A program made the translations under genes and the position numbers. Positions 311-6,680 of a stretch of 6,680 bases of DNA are shown in pieces. The notes beneath the pieces were generated by a model, which saw nothing but the letters and a program-made list of their open reading frames with translations, was not told the DNA's origin and ran no database searches. Numbering within the stretch: position 1 is the stretch's first letter; each line of letters opens with the position of its first letter. The stretch comes from Desulfobacterales bacterium (GTDB lineage: Bacteria; Desulfobacterota; Desulfobacteria; Desulfobacterales; Desulfobacteraceae), in NCBI GenBank assembly GCA_022361535.1, contig JAKSAU010001120.1, positions 1 through 6,680 of the forward strand, written 5' to 3'.

Positions 311-3211
311 ATGTGTGAAAAATTAATGCAACCTGATGCATGTAAAACGATAATAGTCATCACAATTATTACCATAGCAGCAGTGTGCGTGACGGGGTGG
401 GCGGATGCGCTTGCCTCAAACCAAGAAAGCCTTTTAACCCGGGAAGAACAGGCATGGCTTCATGCCAATGATGGTCGTGTCCGGTTTGCACCATCTCCTA
501 CATACCCTCCGATCAGTTTTCGTGACAGCCAAGGTGAATTCAGAGGCCTCACGATGGATATTATAAAACTGATTGAATCCCGCATCGGTATCCGGTTTGA
601 ACTTGTTGCATGCGATACCTGGAGCGAAATTATTGAAAAAGCCCGGGCAAAAGAGATCGACGTAGTGGGAAATATTCAGCCTAATGAGGCAAGAGAGAAA
701 TTTTTACTATTTACTGAGCCTTATGTAACGATTCCCAACGTCATCATAACGCGCAAAGAGATAAAGCGCTCATTAACTCCTGAGGCCATGCAAGGCATGC
801 GGGTGGCGATTGTTAAAGGGTATGCTACAGCAGAGTATTTCCAAAAGCATTTTTCTCAAATAGATATTGAGCTTGTAAAGGACAACGCAAGCGGCCTGCA
901 GGCAGTTTCCTTTGGCCGTATTGACGCTATGGTAACCGATTTGGCTGTTGCCTCACATACCATCGAATCGCTTGGCATAGGAAATCTGAAAGTGGCAGGA
1001 AACGTGCCGGAGTTCACATGGCATCTATCATTTGCCAGCCGCAAAGATATGCCGGTTCTTAACCGCATTCTTTCTAAAGGATTAAAAACGATATCCAAGG
1101 ATGAAAAACAGGAAATCAGGCGTCGCTGGATTGTGCTTGAACGACCGGTTTCTATTTGGAAAGACTTTCGGTTTTATGCGTCACTTTCAGCTGTGATTCT
1201 ATTTTCTGCAATCCTTGCCTTTTTATGGACCCGTACCCTTAGAACTCAAGTGAAAAATCGTACGGAAGAGTTGGCCCAAAGTGAACTCAAATACCGTATA
1301 TTGGCTGAGAATTTATCAGATGTTATCTGGACGCGTGATATGAATTTTACTCTTACCTATATCAGCCCATCAACATTCCAACAGTCCGGGTTCACCGTAG
1401 ACGAAAAATTCAAACTCTCTCTGGAAGACTATCTGACACCTGATTCGATTGTTAAAATTAACCAAACGTTCAAAGAGGAGATGGCGATAGAGCAGCAAAT
1501 GGGTTCAGATCCCAAACGTTCGAGGACGCTTGAAGTAGAAATGCAGCATAAGAACGGTACACTTTTTCCTGTGGAAATGACCGTTTCGTTCTTAAGGGAT
1601 AATAAAGGCAAAGCCGTTGGCATTATAGGGGTTAACCGGGACATCACCATCCGTAAACGGACAGAAGAAGAACTCCTGCATAGTGAGTCAAAGTTTAGGA
1701 ACATATTCAATTTTCTGGACGTTATGATCATGATGAATGGACTAGAAGAAGATGGTTTCCGCTTTTTGGAGGTTAACACGGCTGCTTGCAGCATGCTCAA
1801 GTTTACCCGTGAAGAAATGCTGCAAAAGACACCAATGGATATCGATGAAAATTTAATAACCGGCCGGGTATCTGTTGCAGATATGCCACGGCATGGAGAT
1901 CCCCCCCTTTTTACCGAGACTGTATTGAGAAGAAAGGATGGCTCTAAATTTCCAGTCGAACTCAGTGCCGTTGGCATTGAGTATGAGGGCCGGCCCGGCA
2001 TCCTTGCTGCGGTACGTGATATTACCGACCGCAAACAAAATGAAGAAGAAAAACTTGAGGCCCAAAGAAGCGCTTTGCAACACGAGAAATATGCTTTGGT
2101 TGGCCAAATTGCAGGAAAAATGGCGCATGATTTTAATAATATTCTGGCCGGGATTTTGGGCAATGCCCAGCTTGAACTGTTTGAAGGTGTTGAAAAACAA
2201 AGAGAAGAAACCCTGAATCTGATAGTTGATCTTGCTATGCGGGGCAGTAATCTGACTAAAAACCTGATTGCCTTTGCCAAAGATCAAGAGCCCAAGTTCG
2301 AATACTTTTCCATCAACGACAAGATGGAATTTGTATTAAGCATATTAAAAAAAGAACTTATAGAAATAAATATAATCCGCAAGTACAACTCAGCGGTTTC
2401 TAATTTATTAGCAGATCCGGGAATGATCGAACACGCTCTTGTTAACGTGATACAGAATGCTGTCCATGCAACAAGCAATACAAGGGATCCGAACATTACA
2501 CTTAAAACCGATCAGTTGAAAGACCATATAATTATTGAAGTTGAGGATAATGGCTGCGGAATGCCTCAAGATTTAACGGATCGGATATTCGAACCTGCTT
2601 TTACCCTGAAAGGTATTAAAGACGTTACCGGTTCGTATAAGCCAGGGATTAAAGGAACCGGATATGGAATGACCAACGTAAAAAAATATATTGAACAGCA
2701 CAAAGGGCAGGTTGCTGTCGAATCCCAAATAGATAAAGGTACCAGGGTTGCGATACGATTGCCCATCATCAAAAAGGAACTGACCAAAAAAGAAATAATA
2801 GAAATCAAAGCCACTAAGTCGTATTCTGGCAAGCAGATACTCCTTGTTGAAGACGAACAGGCGATCTCAAATGTTCAATATCAAATATTGACACACCAAT
2901 CCATAAATCACAAAGTTGATATTGCTGCAAACGGGAAATTGGCAATCGATTTGTTTAACAGGTACCAATACGATTTGGTTAGTCTTGATTATATTCTCCC
3001 GGGTCAAACGAACGGTATGGATGTTTACAAACATATTAGAAAAACAAATAGGACGATGCCAATCCTTTTTGTATCAGGCAACATTGAATTTATTGAAAGC
3101 ATCAAAGAGTTGAAGAAAAAAGATCCGATTATTGACCATATTTCAAAGCCATGTCCGAATAAAGAGTATATCAATCGTATAAATAGGTTGTTAGATGCCC
3201 AAGAAGCTTAG
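311..3211 (+). CDS. hybrid sensor histidine kinase with periplasmic solute-binding (SBP_bac_3-like) domain, two PAS domains and C-terminal receiver
   Basis: This is a 966-residue membrane sensor kinase. An N-terminal hydrophobic segment (about residues 12-35) acts as signal or anchor. It is followed by a family-3 extracellular solute-binding domain (about 50-275; RVRFAPSPTYPPISF and GEFRGLTMDII are typical), a transmembrane helix (about 287-306), and two PAS domains (about 322-450 and 458-575, each ending in a DIT motif). The kinase core has phospho-acceptor His606 (MAHDFNN), an N box at QNAVHA (Asn716), and G boxes DNGCGM (746-751) and GTGYGM (782-787). The receiver (about 842-963) has acidic Asp848, phospho-acceptor Asp893, Ser922 and Lys946, so the phosphorelay residues look intact. 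The periplasmic domain should sense a small polar ligand, perhaps an amino acid; the ligand is unknown. The chosen ATG follows AAGGA at 293-297 with a long 13-nt spacing; the next in-frame ATG is at 326. The gene converges on the radical SAM gene with a 53-bp gap. It carries no DNA-binding domain, so output must pass through a phosphotransfer partner elsewhere. A link to the selenopeptide locus is not shown. Confidence 0.95.
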   Translation: MCEKLMQPDACKTIIVITIITIAAVCVTGWADALASNQESLLTREEQAWLHANDGRVRFAPSPTYPPISFRDSQGEFRGLTMDIIKLIESRIGIRFELVACDTWSEIIEKARAKEIDVVGNIQPNEAREKFLLFTEPYVTIPNVIITRKEIKRSLTPEAMQGMRVAIVKGYATAEYFQKHFSQIDIELVKDNASGLQAVSFGRIDAMVTDLAVASHTIESLGIGNLKVAGNVPEFTWHLSFASRKDMPVLNRILSKGLKTISKDEKQEIRRRWIVLERPVSIWKDFRFYASLSAVILFSAILAFLWTRTLRTQVKNRTEELAQSELKYRILAENLSDVIWTRDMNFTLTYISPSTFQQSGFTVDEKFKLSLEDYLTPDSIVKINQTFKEEMAIEQQMGSDPKRSRTLEVEMQHKNGTLFPVEMTVSFLRDNKGKAVGIIGVNRDITIRKRTEEELLHSESKFRNIFNFLDVMIMMNGLEEDGFRFLEVNTAACSMLKFTREEMLQKTPMDIDENLITGRVSVADMPRHGDPPLFTETVLRRKDGSKFPVELSAVGIEYEGRPGILAAVRDITDRKQNEEEKLEAQRSALQHEKYALVGQIAGKMAHDFNNILAGILGNAQLELFEGVEKQREETLNLIVDLAMRGSNLTKNLIAFAKDQEPKFEYFSINDKMEFVLSILKKELIEINIIRKYNSAVSNLLADPGMIEHALVNVIQNAVHATSNTRDPNITLKTDQLKDHIIIEVEDNGCGMPQDLTDRIFEPAFTLKGIKDVTGSYKPGIKGTGYGMTNVKKYIEQHKGQVAVESQIDKGTRVAIRLPIIKKELTKKEIIEIKATKSYSGKQILLVEDEQAISNVQYQILTHQSINHKVDIAANGKLAIDLFNRYQYDLVSLDYILPGQTNGMDVYKHIRKTNRTMPILFVSGNIEFIESIKELKKKDPIIDHISKPCPNKEYINRINRLLDAQEA

Positions 3212-3264: not shown

Positions 3265-4878
3265 TTAAATACGGGGTTTATCCGGGGCCTTGGCATAAAA
3301 GCAGAATGGATCACGGGACTCAAAACAGTCAAGACCCATGCCGTAGACAACAGCGGGACAACCACGGCAAACAGAAAAGAGATCGCAGCCTCTACAGGCA
3401 CTTGAGCCGTTTCTGTATTTTTGCGCCATAGAAGAGTTGTAAATGTTTAAAAGAGAGTCGTGTTTGATATTTCCGATTATGGAAGGAAATTTTCGGCAGG
3501 CATGAACTTCTCCATCCGGAAGAATCGAAACGAAATTAAATGCAGCACCACAGCCGTGTCCGGTACACCCTCCAAACAATTCAGAGCCGTTTTCAGCTTT
3601 GCCAATATTTATCAGGTTATCTTTTAAACTTAAGACCGGGTTGGATTTAGCTGCATTGACATACGCTTTCAAGAAAACCTTGAAATCTTTTGGATCAGGC
3701 ATATTTAAAGCTTGGGCCTCCCCCACCATGGCCAGACGGTTGAATGTAAAGGAATCAGCCTTGCCCTTTAATATATCTGCAAGGGGAAGAACCTGGTCCA
3801 TGTTGTCCCGGTTCAGGGTCAACATGACCATTGAGTAAATATCTTTTTCACGGAGCCGTTCCAAAAAAGAAAGAGAGCGTTTAAAATGTCCAGGGCCGCG
3901 GATATAGTCGTTATAGTCTTCAAGACCTTCCAAGCTGATCTGAAAGTGGGTCAGTGGCTGTATATCAACAAGCGTATCAAGAATGCCAGCGGAAGCAGGG
4001 TTACCTAAAATTGCCATAGAAAACCCCATGTCCGAAGCGGTTTGGTAGAGCTTAGTAAAGTCGGGATAAAGCAAGGGATTACCACCGGTAAAGGTTACAT
4101 GTCCTCTGACATTCATTTTTTGTATAAAATCAAAAAAGGTATCCAGGACAGACTGGGCATCGGAAAAAGACAGCTTTATCCGATCACTTCTGTCATAGCA
4201 ATGCCTGCAGTGCAGATCGCAGACCTGTGTAATATGCCATTGCAGGGTAAATACATCGGTTTTTAAAAATGAGTTAGAAAGTGTATTTGCTGAAAAGTAT
4301 TCAGGGTCTCTGGAAATACCTGATTCAGGAGTTATAAGAAGTCCGTCTTCAGCGGCGTGGTGGAGAATAGCTAATAGTTTTCCAAGAGAACTATTCTCTT
4401 CTTGCGCAGCCTTTTTTATGTCGATGTCGTCTACTATCAGTTTGAGGGCGAGAAGATCATTATCAAATGCTTCCCGGCACAATACTTTTCCTGTTAGCGG
4501 ATGACGCCAGACTAGAATATGACTGTCTTTTTTCTCCGGTTTAAATTGGATCGTTCTGTCTTGCGAATTGAACAGCAAAGCAAGGTTACACCACTTGCTT
4601 GGAATAAGATGAAGGTTAGGGTTAACCATTATATCTTCTACTTTTTCCGGTATGGATTTAGGGTTCCGGCATAAGTTTTGGTAGTTGAATTCCAGCAAGG
4701 CAATATCCGGAAGATATCCCGGAACCTCGTTGTCGTCTTGCACATTATTGATATGCTGGACAAAATCCCAAGGGTCGCGATATTCAAATGCCGACAGGAT
4801 CCTTTCCCAGGCGTTGTCCCCAAGGATCCTGCGGCAGATGGGAAAGTGTTTAACTAAATGGTTTAAAGAATCGGTCAT
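3265..4878 (-). CDS. radical SAM/SPASM RiPP maturase next to the selenopeptide precursor (SbtM-type)
   Basis: This is a radical S-adenosylmethionine enzyme expected to modify the selenopeptide encoded immediately upstream. Residue numbers count from a possible TTG start at 4920 (551 aa). I prefer the ATG at 4878 (residue 15, giving 537 aa) because TTG is weak and abuts a hairpin, but neither start has a good Shine-Dalgarno. The [4Fe-4S] motif CX3CX2C is C234-DLH-C238-RH-C241. A GGNPLL segment at 279-284 matches the SAM-binding GGE/GGNP strand. The C-terminal SPASM domain is complete: C457-X12-G470-X4-C475, then C509-X2-C512-X5-C518-X2-C521 and later Cys532/Cys540, enough to ligate auxiliary Fe-S clusters. 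Residues 1-220 form a long extension; about 100-200 has a strand-rich then helical pattern reminiscent of a PqqD-like leader-binding (RRE) fold, which is only an inference. SPASM enzymes beside small Cys-rich peptides commonly make thioether or related crosslinks. From memory the pairing matches the 'selenobiotic' (SbtM) maturase family; the exact reaction here is unknown. The gene lies 66 nt downstream of the precursor stop codon and is probably co-transcribed with it. Confidence 0.9.
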   Translation of the reverse strand: MTDSLNHLVKHFPICRRILGDNAWERILSAFEYRDPWDFVQHINNVQDDNEVPGYLPDIALLEFNYQNLCRNPKSIPEKVEDIMVNPNLHLIPSKWCNLALLFNSQDRTIQFKPEKKDSHILVWRHPLTGKVLCREAFDNDLLALKLIVDDIDIKKAAQEENSSLGKLLAILHHAAEDGLLITPESGISRDPEYFSANTLSNSFLKTDVFTLQWHITQVCDLHCRHCYDRSDRIKLSFSDAQSVLDTFFDFIQKMNVRGHVTFTGGNPLLYPDFTKLYQTASDMGFSMAILGNPASAGILDTLVDIQPLTHFQISLEGLEDYNDYIRGPGHFKRSLSFLERLREKDIYSMVMLTLNRDNMDQVLPLADILKGKADSFTFNRLAMVGEAQALNMPDPKDFKVFLKAYVNAAKSNPVLSLKDNLINIGKAENGSELFGGCTGHGCGAAFNFVSILPDGEVHACRKFPSIIGNIKHDSLLNIYNSSMAQKYRNGSSACRGCDLFSVCRGCPAVVYGMGLDCFESRDPFCFYAKAPDKPRI

Positions 4879-4921: not shown

Positions 4922-4938
4922 TCATGCGAACCGCATGA
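4922..4938 (-). promoter_or_regulatory. candidate SECIS hairpin for Sec112, located beyond the stop codon
   Basis: On the coding strand TCATGCGGTTCGCATGA is a perfect palindromic stem (6 bp with loop GGUUC, or 7 bp with a 3-nt loop). It lies at nucleotides 13-29 after the TGA at 4951-4953. The TAG stop is only two codons after that TGA, so this hairpin is untranslated. Its GGU is at nucleotides 19-21, three bases nearer the TGA than in the other four, which by my count is the position of GGU in the E. coli fdhF element. It is too short and lacks a U-tract to be a normal terminator. Confidence 0.7.
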
Positions 4939-4944
4939 AATAGA

Positions 4945-5286
4945 CTAACCTCAGCCGCTTTTGGGCTTCTGTGAGTCTTTTGTGGTGCCACCTGCACCAC
5001 TTGAGCCGCCACTTCAGCCACTTTGGGGTTTTTGTTCTTTGGTTTCTTTTTCGGGTTCTTTTGTGGTGCCACCTGCACCACTTGAACTACCACTTCAGCC
5101 GCTTTGGGGGCTAACTGCCTCCGGTTTTTCTCCGCTTCAGCCGCTTTGGGAACTACCTGTTCCCGTTTTTTTATCGCCTCAGCCACTGCCAGCGATGCAG
5201 ACAGGGGGCAATACGGCTGAAGAACCTGTAAGAAGACCGGCGACACAAAACCCAGCCAGTAATTTCTTCAGTTCTTTTTGATCCAT
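4945..5286 (-). CDS. multi-selenocysteine RiPP precursor peptide (SbtA-type selenopeptide) with five in-frame TGA/Sec codons
   Basis: Reading TGA as selenocysteine (U) gives a 113-residue peptide from ATG 5286 to TAG 4945. AGGAGG lies 7 nt upstream of the ATG. The leader begins MDQKELKKLLAGFCVAGLLT and continues hydrophobic and small-residue rich to about residue 33. It could serve as enzyme-recognition leader, export signal or both. The core is Gly/Ser-rich with Lys/Glu-rich linkers and five Ser-Gly-Sec motifs: Sec36, Sec50, Sec64, Sec91 and Sec112 (TGA at 5179-5181, 5137-5139, 5095-5097, 5014-5016 and 4951-4953). Every TGA is preceded by AGY-GGC and followed by a hairpin. Cys14 and Cys30 are the only cysteines. 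The other genes use TGG for Trp and have no internal TGA, which argues against general UGA reassignment. The radical SAM enzyme is next downstream. From memory this resembles the in silico 'selenobiotic' family of radical SAM-modified selenopeptides. Sec insertion needs selA, selB, selC and selD elsewhere in the genome. Standard gene callers would miss the gene or choose a wrong frame. Confidence 0.88.
4976..5028 (-). repeat. Sec-module direct repeat, copy 2 (around Sec91)
   Basis: This is the second copy of the 53-bp unit, encoding PQSGU followed by SGGSSGAGGTTK. The TGA and its hairpin are carried together in the unit, so duplication adds a complete, decodable selenocysteine site. Its start is 81 bp from that of the first copy. 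Confidence 0.85.
4982..5000 (-). promoter_or_regulatory. candidate bacterial SECIS hairpin for Sec91
   Basis: This hairpin is identical to the one after Sec64: a 7-bp stem and loop AGGUG at nucleotides 14-32 after the TGA at 5014-5016. It belongs to the duplicated Sec module. Confidence 0.8.
5057..5109 (-). repeat. Sec-module direct repeat, copy 1 (around Sec64)
   Basis: This 53-bp unit runs on the coding strand from CCCCAAAGCGGCTGA through the hairpin to CACCACAAAAGA. It encodes the PQSGU motif followed by SGSSSGAGGTTK. It matches the second copy at 4976-5028 except for about four substitutions. Confidence 0.85.
5063..5081 (-). promoter_or_regulatory. candidate bacterial SECIS hairpin for Sec64
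   Basis: On the coding strand GTGGTGCAGGTGGCACCAC forms a perfect 7-bp stem with loop AGGUG. It lies at nucleotides 14-32 after the TGA at 5095-5097, with the loop again at 21-25. The same hairpin is repeated after Sec91. Confidence 0.8.
5106..5122 (-). promoter_or_regulatory. candidate bacterial SECIS hairpin for Sec50
   Basis: On the coding strand GGAGGCAGTTAGCCCCC folds with five pairs and one A-C mismatch around loop AGUUA. It sits at nucleotides 15-31 after the TGA at 5137-5139, the same offset as the hairpin after Sec36. Its stem sequence is different, which suggests selection on structure. This is the weakest of the four internal hairpins. Confidence 0.65.
5148..5164 (-). promoter_or_regulatory. 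candidate bacterial SECIS hairpin for Sec36
   Basis: On the coding strand GGGAACAGGTAGTTCCC forms a perfect 6-bp stem with loop AGGUA. It occupies nucleotides 15-31 after the TGA at 5179-5181, with the loop at 21-25. The GU-bearing loop and the distance resemble the fdhF-type bacterial SECIS that SelB recognises. Confidence 0.8.
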
Positions 5287-5293
5287 ACCAGTT

Positions 5294-5299
5294 CCTCCT
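5294..5299 (-). promoter_or_regulatory. strong ribosome binding site of the selenopeptide gene
   Basis: A perfect AGGAGG lies 7 nt upstream of the ATG at 5286. It is the best Shine-Dalgarno in the window. It fixes the reading frame in which the five TGA codons are in phase, and therefore decides between this ORF and the TGA-free overlapping frames. Confidence 0.9.
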
Positions 5300-5554: not shown

Positions 5555-5571
5555 CCTGAATTTTTATCAGG
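5555..5571 (-). terminator. short hairpin over the deacylase stop codon
   Basis: CCTGATAAAAATTCAGG forms a 5-bp stem with a 7-nt A/T loop and overlaps the stop codon at 5567-5569. No U-run follows. It is a doubtful terminator, recorded because no other transcription end is visible before the selenopeptide gene. Confidence 0.15.
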
Positions 5572-6680
5572 TAAGAAATTTGCCTGGTTTCAATGAAGGA
5601 TCTGCGATCCCGTTTTTTACCACCTGTACTCCGTTGATGAAAACCGCACCAATGCCTGAAGGCCGCTTGTCTGTCTGGTCAAGGGTAGTGTTGTCTTTGA
5701 TTGATTCCCAGTCAAATATGGTGATGTCTGCGGCTTTGCCTTTTTCAAGGACACCGCGATCCTTGATGTCAAATCGTTTGGCACTTGCACCTGTCATTTT
5801 ATGAATCACAGCTTCCAATGAAAGAAGCCTTTTTTCCCTGGCCTTTTGCAGAAAACAGGGAAAACATCCAAAAGCCGCAGGATTTTGCAGACCGTCCGGC
5901 TCGGTCCAGGCATCTGTCATGTATACGGATAAGGGGTGCACCATTAAGGCATCTACGATTTGTGGACTTGTATACTTATGCATCAGCACACGGGCAGTCC
6001 CATTGCTTTCACGGACAAAATCCATATAATTTTGGAATGGGGCAACCCCGCGTTCTTTTGCAATCTGTGATAAAAACATTCCGTTGAACTTTTCAAAAGG
6101 TTCGTGCATGGCAGAGGCAATCTGGATATCGTCAAACCCAAAACCCAGAAGCTTAAAAGAGATGGCTGCAAGAAGCCTTGCTTTTAAAATCATGGTTTTG
6201 TCTTCATAGCTTTGCGGGGCTTTGGCCATAAACCAGTCAGGCATGAGAACGGTAATGATGGATGCACCGCAGTGATACGGATAAGAATCAATGCCAATAT
6301 CAAGACCGTCGGCAACAGCCTTTTCAATTAATGCCATGGCTTTATCAAAGGTTTTCCAGGTCTTTTCTCCCACGAAAATCAAATGGGACAACTGAATAGG
6401 AACATCGGTTTCCCGGGCCAGGTTTAGAGCTTCTTCCAGGGCGATAATATTATGGGCTTTGCCAAAGGGAATCACAGGATAGGTGGCTGAAACCGAAGAG
6501 TAGGCCTTAAGATGTAAGGTTAAAAGTTTTCCTCTGGACTTGACCAGGTCTGCGATCTGCTTGATTTCATCTTTTTGAGCAAAAATCCCGGGCGCATACT
6601 GAAAACCGAAAGAGACGCCTTTGGCCCCTTCATCCATGGCCTGGCCCATGAGGGATAAAAGGGTTGTGCTCTGCTCTTTG
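5567..6680 (-). CDS. N-acyl-D-amino-acid deacylase-like amidohydrolase (3' part; 5' end outside the window)
   Basis: This is the C-terminal part of a metal-dependent amidohydrolase of the D-aminoacylase family, which hydrolyses N-acyl-D-amino acids or related amides in the cytoplasm. The frame stays open through the right edge (KEQSTTLLSL precedes the first visible ATG at 6649), so the start is beyond the window. That ATG falls within the conserved stretch AMDEGAKGVSFGFQYAPG and is not the true start. Counting from it, candidate metal or catalytic residues are His46 (TLHLKAY), His89 (QLSHL) and Asp246 (MTDAW); IDSYPYHCGAS and NPAAFGCFPCFL correspond to family motifs (usually DxYPY and HPRxYGTFPR, so the latter has diverged). 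The C-terminus GVLEKGKAADITIFD...VFINGVQVVKNG is the usual composite-domain ending. The visible part is 370 residues; relatives have roughly 480-550, so the missing N-terminus should hold the HxH metal site. The gene ends in TGA followed at once by TAA. It is on the same strand as the selenopeptide gene but 280 bp away, so co-function is unproven. Confidence 0.85.
   Translation of the reverse strand, partial: KEQSTTLLSLMGQAMDEGAKGVSFGFQYAPGIFAQKDEIKQIADLVKSRGKLLTLHLKAYSSVSATYPVIPFGKAHNIIALEEALNLARETDVPIQLSHLIFVGEKTWKTFDKAMALIEKAVADGLDIGIDSYPYHCGASIITVLMPDWFMAKAPQSYEDKTMILKARLLAAISFKLLGFGFDDIQIASAMHEPFEKFNGMFLSQIAKERGVAPFQNYMDFVRESNGTARVLMHKYTSPQIVDALMVHPLSVYMTDAWTEPDGLQNPAAFGCFPCFLQKAREKRLLSLEAVIHKMTGASAKRFDIKDRGVLEKGKAADITIFDWESIKDNTTLDQTDKRPSGIGAVFINGVQVVKNGIADPSLKPGKFLT

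Follow-up and report, generated by a model that had tools for sequence, protein, structure and literature searches.

The window, by which we mean the whole 6,680-nucleotide (nt) stretch of contig JAKSAU010001120.1 from a Desulfobacterales bacterium, carries on its minus strand two adjacent genes, sbtA and sbtM, which very probably form a two-gene cassette for a selenium-containing ribosomally synthesized and post-translationally modified peptide (RiPP). In the first step of the proposed mechanism, which like the second we rate as very probable, the five in-frame UGA codons of sbtA would be decoded as selenocysteine (Sec), each by its own selenocysteine insertion sequence (SECIS) hairpin approximately 20 nt 3' of the codon, the last SECIS lying past the stop codon. 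In the second, the maturase SbtM would hold the precursor through an N-terminal module like the PME-type (DUF2063 plus RRE) partner of MNIO enzymes, and its radical SAM/SPASM part would take four hydrogens at each Sec to yield selenooxazoles, as judged from published SbtM chemistry cited in a review. The SbtA family itself is known, and the window gene is an additional, extreme member of it; what is added here is the logic of the Sec+SECIS module and the fusion of a PME module to a radical SAM enzyme.

The five-UGA observation is real. As the original prediction, made from the letters of the window, had proposed, the gene occupies 5286..4945 (the strand, unstated there, is the minus strand), an AGGAGG Shine-Dalgarno sequence is present at 5299..5294, and translation with UGA read as Sec runs for 113 codons up to a TAG. 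The frame contains five UGAs, no TAA, and no internal TAG. The parts of the gene are as follows.

4945..5286, minus strand: sbtA, 113-codon selenopeptide precursor gene with five in-frame UGAs and a TAG stop (translation; TIGR04081, 1.6e-13)
5294..5299, minus strand: Shine-Dalgarno sequence AGGAGG, 7 nt 5' of the ATG (sequence)
5286..5284, minus strand: ATG of sbtA (sequence)
4947..4945, minus strand: TAG stop of sbtA (sequence)
5179..5181, minus strand: UGA 1, residue 36 (translation)
5137..5139, minus strand: UGA 2, residue 50 (translation)
5095..5097, minus strand: UGA 3, residue 64 (translation)
5014..5016, minus strand: UGA 4, residue 91 (translation)
4951..4953, minus strand: UGA 5, residue 112 (translation)

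The Ser-Gly-UGA context that had been noticed was found at all five UGAs, which share AG[C/T] GGC TGA [A/G]G[C/T], i.e., Ser-Gly-UGA-(Ser/Gly), and Sec in a small-residue context is thereby repeated 3' of the leader as five SG-U-[SG] sites. When the Sec-translated peptide was compared with SbtA family models, residues 1–27 matched NCBIfam family TIGR04081 at 50.1 bits, over the cut-off of 30.5, so the earlier guess of an SbtA-type RiPP precursor was right, and the interpretation of the gene as encoding a five-Sec selenopeptide is supported. Downstream of each UGA, the following SECIS-like hairpins were found.

5148..5164, minus strand: SECIS-like hairpin 1, GGGAAC-AGGTA-GTTCCC (folding, permutation)
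5106..5122, minus strand: SECIS-like hairpin 2, GGAGGC-AGTTA-GCCCCC, with one A.C mismatch (sequence)
5063..5081, minus strand: SECIS-like hairpin 3, GTGGTGC-AGGTG-GCACCAC (folding, permutation)
4982..5000, minus strand: SECIS-like hairpin 4, identical to hairpin 3 as part of a duplicated module (sequence identity)
4922..4938, minus strand: SECIS-like hairpin 5, TCATGCG-GTT-CGCATGA, 3' of the TAG stop (folding, base shuffles)

A hairpin thus lies approximately 20 nt 3' of every sbtA UGA, with its loop at nt 20–25; four of the five stems are intact and one is mismatched. When the codons were permuted synonymously with the amino acids fixed, none of 5000 permutations reached the summed hairpin energy of the four internal UGAs, which, together with the TIGR04081 match (1.6e-13), bears out the view that chance is an unlikely explanation. 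For single hairpins, the real value was reached by 2 of 5000 permutations at UGA1, 175 at UGA3, and 176 at UGA4, and that of the post-stop hairpin (UGA5) by 16 of 5000 base shuffles. The UGA3 and UGA4 blocks (53 nt each) are 92% identical, indicating that the array grew by duplication and therefore that the five UGAs are not five independent events; even when only one duplicate copy was counted (UGA1+UGA3 or UGA1+UGA4), the real value was reached by 0 of 5000 permutations. UGA2 adds nothing to the summed energy, because the mismatched stem of hairpin 2 offers no contiguous stem. Rfam at gathering thresholds gave no match in the window, the presence of a bacterial SECIS model in the library being unchecked. 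Decoding of the UGAs as Sec by their own SECIS hairpins is supported by these computations, least for UGA2. The hairpins would largely dictate the linker residues, and the gene may be viewed as an array of Sec+SECIS modules able to duplicate, as at UGA3/UGA4.

To place the window among its relatives, we drew on a genome scan (288 stretches encoding an SbtM relative, 80 loci kept), an SbtM protein search (7998 candidates scored, the best 120 of 3213 taken), and whole-genome searches. The last of these placed SbtM over cut-off in 13 genomes out of 86 for the family of G001, in 128 out of 257 for the G003 order, and in 27 out of 395 taken from the G006 phylum; these three genomes (loci L001, L038, and L029) represent Desulfobacter latus, Desulfogranum japonicum, and a Nitrospirota bacterium, respectively. 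With identical SbtA proteins collapsed and loci without SbtM over cut-off (L094–L110 and L168–L170) left out of the counts, the set comprised 105 distinct SbtAs from 98 loci, including the window; gene starts and ends were assigned by a script, which seems to have erred in a few cases (e.g., L049 and L119). Ninety-two SbtAs were Sec-only, five Cys-only, and eight mixed. The number of Sec per gene was 0 in 5, 1 in 7, 2 in 45, 3 in 42, 4 in 5, and 5 in one, the window sbtA, which thus has the highest count of the set. The exceptional selenium density claimed earlier holds in that five Sec is the maximum seen, but carrying at least two is normal in this family (93 of 105). A 2026 review states that the vast majority of 119 prokaryotic selenoprotein families and subfamilies have 1 Sec and a small subset 2–3, and its table enters TIGR04081 as 'Selenobacteriocin' with 2 Sec (PMC13188914). 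A protein search with SbtA (C substituted for U) returned a single match, an entry of 71 residues that stops at the first UGA. No SbtM relatives were found in the plasmid collection (E<=1e-40) or in the collection of viral contigs, and the cassette therefore appears not to be plasmid- or virus-borne in those collections. At L024, L027, L028, L061, and L073, one sbtM is preceded by two sbtA, with lipobox-like and AxA-like leaders (both loose patterns).

Across the 105 SbtAs, a hairpin in register (energy of -4 or lower) was present at 210 of 248 Sec sites versus 6 of 29 Cys sites, with the same tendency at internal sites (Sec 125/155, Cys 3/17) and terminal sites (Sec 85/93, Cys 3/12). De-duplication of internal sites by 40-mer kept 153 of 155 and gave 124/153 for Sec versus 3/17 for Cys (Fisher p 2.7e-7, which overstates independence given the shared descent of the sites). 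Of the three internal Cys sites with a hairpin, two lie in mixed genes (L083 and L087). Stem pairing over five positions was 79% in the fixed register at Sec sites versus 28–49% when slid by 1–3 nt, and 45% versus 29–37% at Cys sites; the 153 Sec sequences contained 119 distinct stem–loops. In per-gene synonymous permutations of 64 relatives (113 internal UGAs), the mean energy was -7.05 versus -1.76 after permutation, and the real value was reached by 0 of 200 permutations in 27 genes and by at most 2 of 200 in 34 genes. Of the internal sites, 121 of 155 with Sec had the motif [GSD][AT][GV][GSD][STA] nearby, versus 1 of 17 with Cys; at exactly +6 to +10, the counts were 90 of 155 versus 1 of 17. 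Because this GAGGT-type Gly/Ser/Thr linker follows Sec sites and not Cys sites, it seems to be the SECIS hairpin read as peptide, rather than a designed peptide repeat.

Some sites depart from the one-hairpin pattern. The internal UGAs of L011/L150, L061/L147, L064/L156, L073, and L148 have no in-register hairpin, and several of their spacers encode GDAQQAP-like peptides; these loci may use a different SECIS geometry. In L017, L024/L158, L043, L080, L131, and L153, UGAs occur in pairs 3–8 codons apart with an in-register hairpin for the second only, which would fit a single SECIS shared by both UGAs.

Some SbtA genes place a Sec UGA and a stop UGA side by side. With each UGA classed as Sec or stop from its two preceding residues, 89 genes had a Sec no more than 10 codons from the end; the stop was UGA in 18 of these and in 17 lay two codons past the Sec UGA. 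From its Sec UGA the loop centre lay 21.4 nt away on average, and from the stop UGA 14.9 nt. A purine (A or G) came next at 235 of the 248 Sec UGAs and a T at 14 of the 21 stop UGAs, a bias that is partly built in because Sec sites mostly precede Ser or Gly. Genes ending in Sec-UGA, one codon, and stop-UGA may thus offer a natural ruler for the SECIS-to-UGA distance.

Among the relatives' genomes, the Sec machinery and the use of Sec go together. All eight genomes with a Sec-bearing SbtA (G001–G006, plus G033 and G066 with mixed SbtAs) had selA, tRNA-Sec, and selD over cut-off, and four of the five genomes with an all-Cys SbtA (G742–G745) had none of the three over cut-off. Each such absence is weak singly, as genome completeness is not given, but the three genes concur. 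selB was over cut-off in all six relative genomes tested. In G005 (of L005), contig C38:23736-25745 carries a second tRNA-Sec directly 5' of a second selB, both over cut-off. The best selD match in each of G001–G006, G031, G033, and G066 contains one in-frame TGA, and SelD in these genomes itself looks like a selenoprotein from its sequence. At the level of single genes, the original prediction had asked what homologs carry at the UGA positions, and the answer is divided: Sec and Cys are exchanged in the eight mixed and five all-Cys genes, but some single sites hold neither.

Several observations weigh against the decoding of every UGA by its own hairpin. In the window, the UGA3 hairpin is by itself unremarkable, given the 175 permutations that reach its value, and hairpin 2, besides its mismatched stem, is absent from the predicted minimum-energy fold and gives zero signal in the permutation test. 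In the family, 23 of the 64 genes tested in relatives yielded more than 10 permutations per 200 that reached the real score; a hairpin in register was missing at 30 of the 155 internal Sec sites and at 8 of the 93 terminal ones; and loci titled or drawn as Nitrospirota had it at 19 of 37 internal sites, whereas the others had it at 106 of 118. The single sites with neither Sec nor Cys carry Gly (L033 and L047), Asp (L001 and L086), or other residues (L004 and L059; no systematic count), and G031, with an all-Cys SbtA, does carry selA, tRNA-Sec, and selD.

The second gene of the cassette starts 66 nt 3' of the sbtA stop and is divided as follows.

3265..4878, minus strand: sbtM, radical SAM/SPASM maturase of 537 amino acids (TIGR04082, 4.7e-212)
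4333..4869, minus strand: N-terminal PME-like module of SbtM, with a DUF2063-like helical part and an RRE-like winged helix (profile and fold comparison)
3775..4233, minus strand: radical SAM domain of SbtM (PF04055, 2.1e-17)
3382..3552, minus strand: SPASM domain of SbtM (PF13186, 1.6e-10)

The window SbtM scored 705 bits against TIGR04082 (cut-off 350); PF04055 and PF13186 were over cut-off, and the radical SAM CxxxCxxC motif reads CDLHCRHC. The original prediction had known of no established product structure. This does not hold for the Cys form: according to a review citing Lewis et al. 2021 (PMC11002830), SbtM in vitro takes four hydrogens from Cys as well as Sec substrates, and the Cys product was shown by nuclear magnetic resonance (NMR) to be a thiooxazole. 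By extension, all five Sec of the window SbtA would be modified by SbtM.

Reported here as new is a homology between the N-terminus of SbtM and the DUF2063-RRE partner of the MNIO enzymes, by which the same thiooxazole is made in copper-binding RiPPs. The two were matched by hhalign at 97.9%, and the homology to the PME-type module covers both domains (DUF2063 and RRE). Because all of the best 50 fold matches of full-length SbtM were radical SAM proteins, the N-terminus was modelled alone, and its best fold match in the Protein Data Bank (PDB) was 3DEE; the N-terminal sequence profile gave nothing significant against PDB chains (best E 0.5). A single-sequence Pfam comparison, which tells against the assignment, gave 14.8 bits for DUF2063 versus a gathering threshold of 27.2, and the N-terminus is therefore counted as a homologue and not as a member of PF09836. 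For 12 of the 30 PME loci the upstream frames were drawn; 10 of these were scanned with Pfam, and all 10 encoded MNIO. Across the class of G003 (144 genomes), no DUF2063 was found at E<=0.001, and the search of five genomes of SbtM loci gave nothing over cut-off, the sole match (G747, E 0.0099) being its SbtM locus itself (L054). No MNIO enzyme (PF05114) was found among the four window proteins scanned, the window ending 1.4 kb upstream of sbtA. By analogy with RRE proteins, the N-terminal module would bind the precursor.

The leader of the precursor, which bears on the fate of the product, is placed as follows.

5206..5286, minus strand: SbtA leader, residues 1–27 (the part matched by TIGR04081), hydrophobic and apparently signal-peptide-like (TIGR04081)

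SbtA leaders have Lys near the start, followed by a hydrophobic stretch. A lipobox-like xx[GAS]-Cys at residues 26–29, counted with Cys only since UGA sites also matched a wider pattern, ends the leader in 57 of the 105 SbtAs (45 at residue 29), compared with a mean of 14.7 and a maximum of 24 in 500 shuffles. This position is encoded as Cys in genes with Sec at later sites. The one clear UGA there, at residue 29 of the L012 sbtA, would place Sec at a lipidation-type site. A small-x-small pattern lies 5' of the first Sec in 39 of the remaining 48 SbtAs (a loose test with no background). SbtM neighbours SbtA in 79 of 81 loci, and the next commonest gene family, whose representative is sensor-like by eye, was found in 14 of 81. 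Among the neighbours of sbtAM, no protease, exporter, transporter, or immunity gene stood out (open reading frames of >=90 amino acids in BLAST clusters, assessed by eye, with many loci cut by contig ends). Exported or lipoprotein-type RiPP precursors and copper-binding thiooxazole RiPPs appear in PMC12452194, PMC12636315, PMC12538549, and PMC12668002. On the basis of the leader features, the lone SbtM neighbour, and these described RiPPs, we favour, as a tentative view short of probable, an exported, selenium-bearing soft-metal ligand over a bacteriocin or a redox or storage peptide. In this third step, the modified peptide would leave by the general Sec (secretion) route, in many relatives as a lipoprotein, and could act as a multidentate soft-metal ligand. 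Counting against this view, the window leader has no lipobox-like Cys; it belongs to the small-x-small kind and offers only a possible signal peptidase I site.

The same Sec-coded RiPP could instead be released as a small antimicrobial, a 'selenobacteriocin' or 'selenobiotic', which we regard as unlikely. The names point that way, TIGR04081 being so called in a review table (PMC13188914) and several source names, among the matches listed, giving SbtM as 'selenobiotic family peptide radical SAM maturase', as does the architecture of a leader followed by repeats. However, the absence of a conspicuous protease, exporter, or immunity gene beside sbtAM, with the commonest neighbour after SbtM at 14 of 81 loci, and the lipobox-like Cys that ends many leaders argue against release, and the N-terminal module of SbtM is that of thiooxazole metallophore pathways, as these are described in PMC12668002. 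Equally unlikely in our estimate is a periplasmic redox or selenium-storage peptide with Sec incorporated and heterocycles of minor importance. Its high selenium density (5 per 113 residues) and the existence of all-Cys forms would suit such a role, but all-Cys genes would store no selenium, and SbtM, one of which oxidizes Cys and Sec to heterocycles in vitro according to the review (PMC11002830), adjoins SbtA.

More doubtful still is the proposal that the N-terminus of SbtM resembles DUF2063-RRE proteins merely through a common winged-helix RRE, rather than through shared ancestry of the whole module. The sequence identity of just 12–16% fits this proposal, as do the weak single-sequence Pfam matches of SbtM N-termini (DUF2063 in 7 of 91 and NGO1945_C in 6 of 91, with the Sigma70_r4_2 profile in 8 of 91); we prefer whole-module homology, given its coverage of both domains. 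That the UGAs are true stops, leaving a 35-residue product and a decayed or coincidental downstream frame, was considered and rejected as highly improbable: database entry P0122, a close relative, does end just before the first UGA, but the permutation results, the hairpins, the exchange of U and C, and the family-wide concordance with the Sec machinery all contradict it. Genome-wide recoding of UGA to Trp or another amino acid, under which the frame would be open as under any sense reading, is the least credible of all and was also rejected, because the gene upstream of sbtA terminates at UGA (5569..5567), so that UGA is not reassigned throughout but read by context, and because relatives can have Cys at the UGA sites, which are accompanied by SECIS-like hairpins.

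Two other genes were recognized in the window. A partial amidohydrolase gene (5567-6679, minus strand), ending in UGA, lies upstream of sbtA on the same strand, and a hybrid histidine kinase with an SBP_bac_3 sensor, PAS domains, and a receiver (311-3211, plus strand) lies on the opposite side, directed towards sbtM.

Taken as a whole, SbtA/SbtM may represent an anaerobic selenium branch of the thiooxazole metallophores, a synthesis to which we give slightly less than an even chance: one PME module would serve two unrelated oxidases, MNIO and a fused radical SAM enzyme, that make the same heterocycle on exported peptides, with Sec+SECIS as the duplication unit, RNA structure dictating the linker, and the window holding the most extended array of the set. 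From the shared PME module it would seem that thiooxazole biosynthesis has precursor recognition, and not the oxidant, as its common part; for SbtA, the module supplies a definite hypothesis of function, that of a soft-metal ligand, beside the name 'selenobacteriocin'. The series of Sec, mixed, and Cys precursors, with and without the Sec machinery, separates the parts of the precursor owed to RNA from those owed to the peptide.

In bacterial selenoproteins, the SECIS lies in the coding region as a hairpin with a loop G roughly 20 nt 3' of the UGA; SbtA differs from these in that a single short gene carries a series of SECIS, with the last past the stop. The window system resembles the known SbtA/SbtM system (TIGR04081/TIGR04082; Lewis et al. 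2021, as covered in PMC11002830) in its leader, its S/G/A-Sec-S/G sites, and its adjacent SbtM, both proteins being over curated cut-offs. It differs in its five Sec, the maximum among 105 SbtAs, its duplicated Sec+SECIS module, and its leader without a lipobox-like Cys, and the example in the review table has 2 Sec where the window has five (PMC13188914). In the RiPP–lipoprotein hybrids DybA and NedA, as presented in PMC12636315, the leader is a lipoprotein signal peptide, which resembles the approximately half of SbtAs with a lipobox-like Cys, although any lipidation of SbtA is putative and the window SbtA has no such Cys. The 5-thiooxazole RiPPs of the MNIO-PME1 type, namely bufferins, oxazolin, fontiphorin, and bulbicupramide ('captophorins' in PMC12668002), share with SbtA/SbtM the heterocycle reported on Cys, a homologous DUF2063-RRE recognition module, signal-peptide-like leaders, and repeated sites. 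In contrast to these, the catalyst in SbtA/SbtM is a radical SAM/SPASM enzyme and not an MNIO, the recognition module is fused to it rather than separate, most SbtA members use Sec instead of Cys, and the hosts in this set are, by record title, chiefly of the Desulfobacterota and Nitrospirota types.
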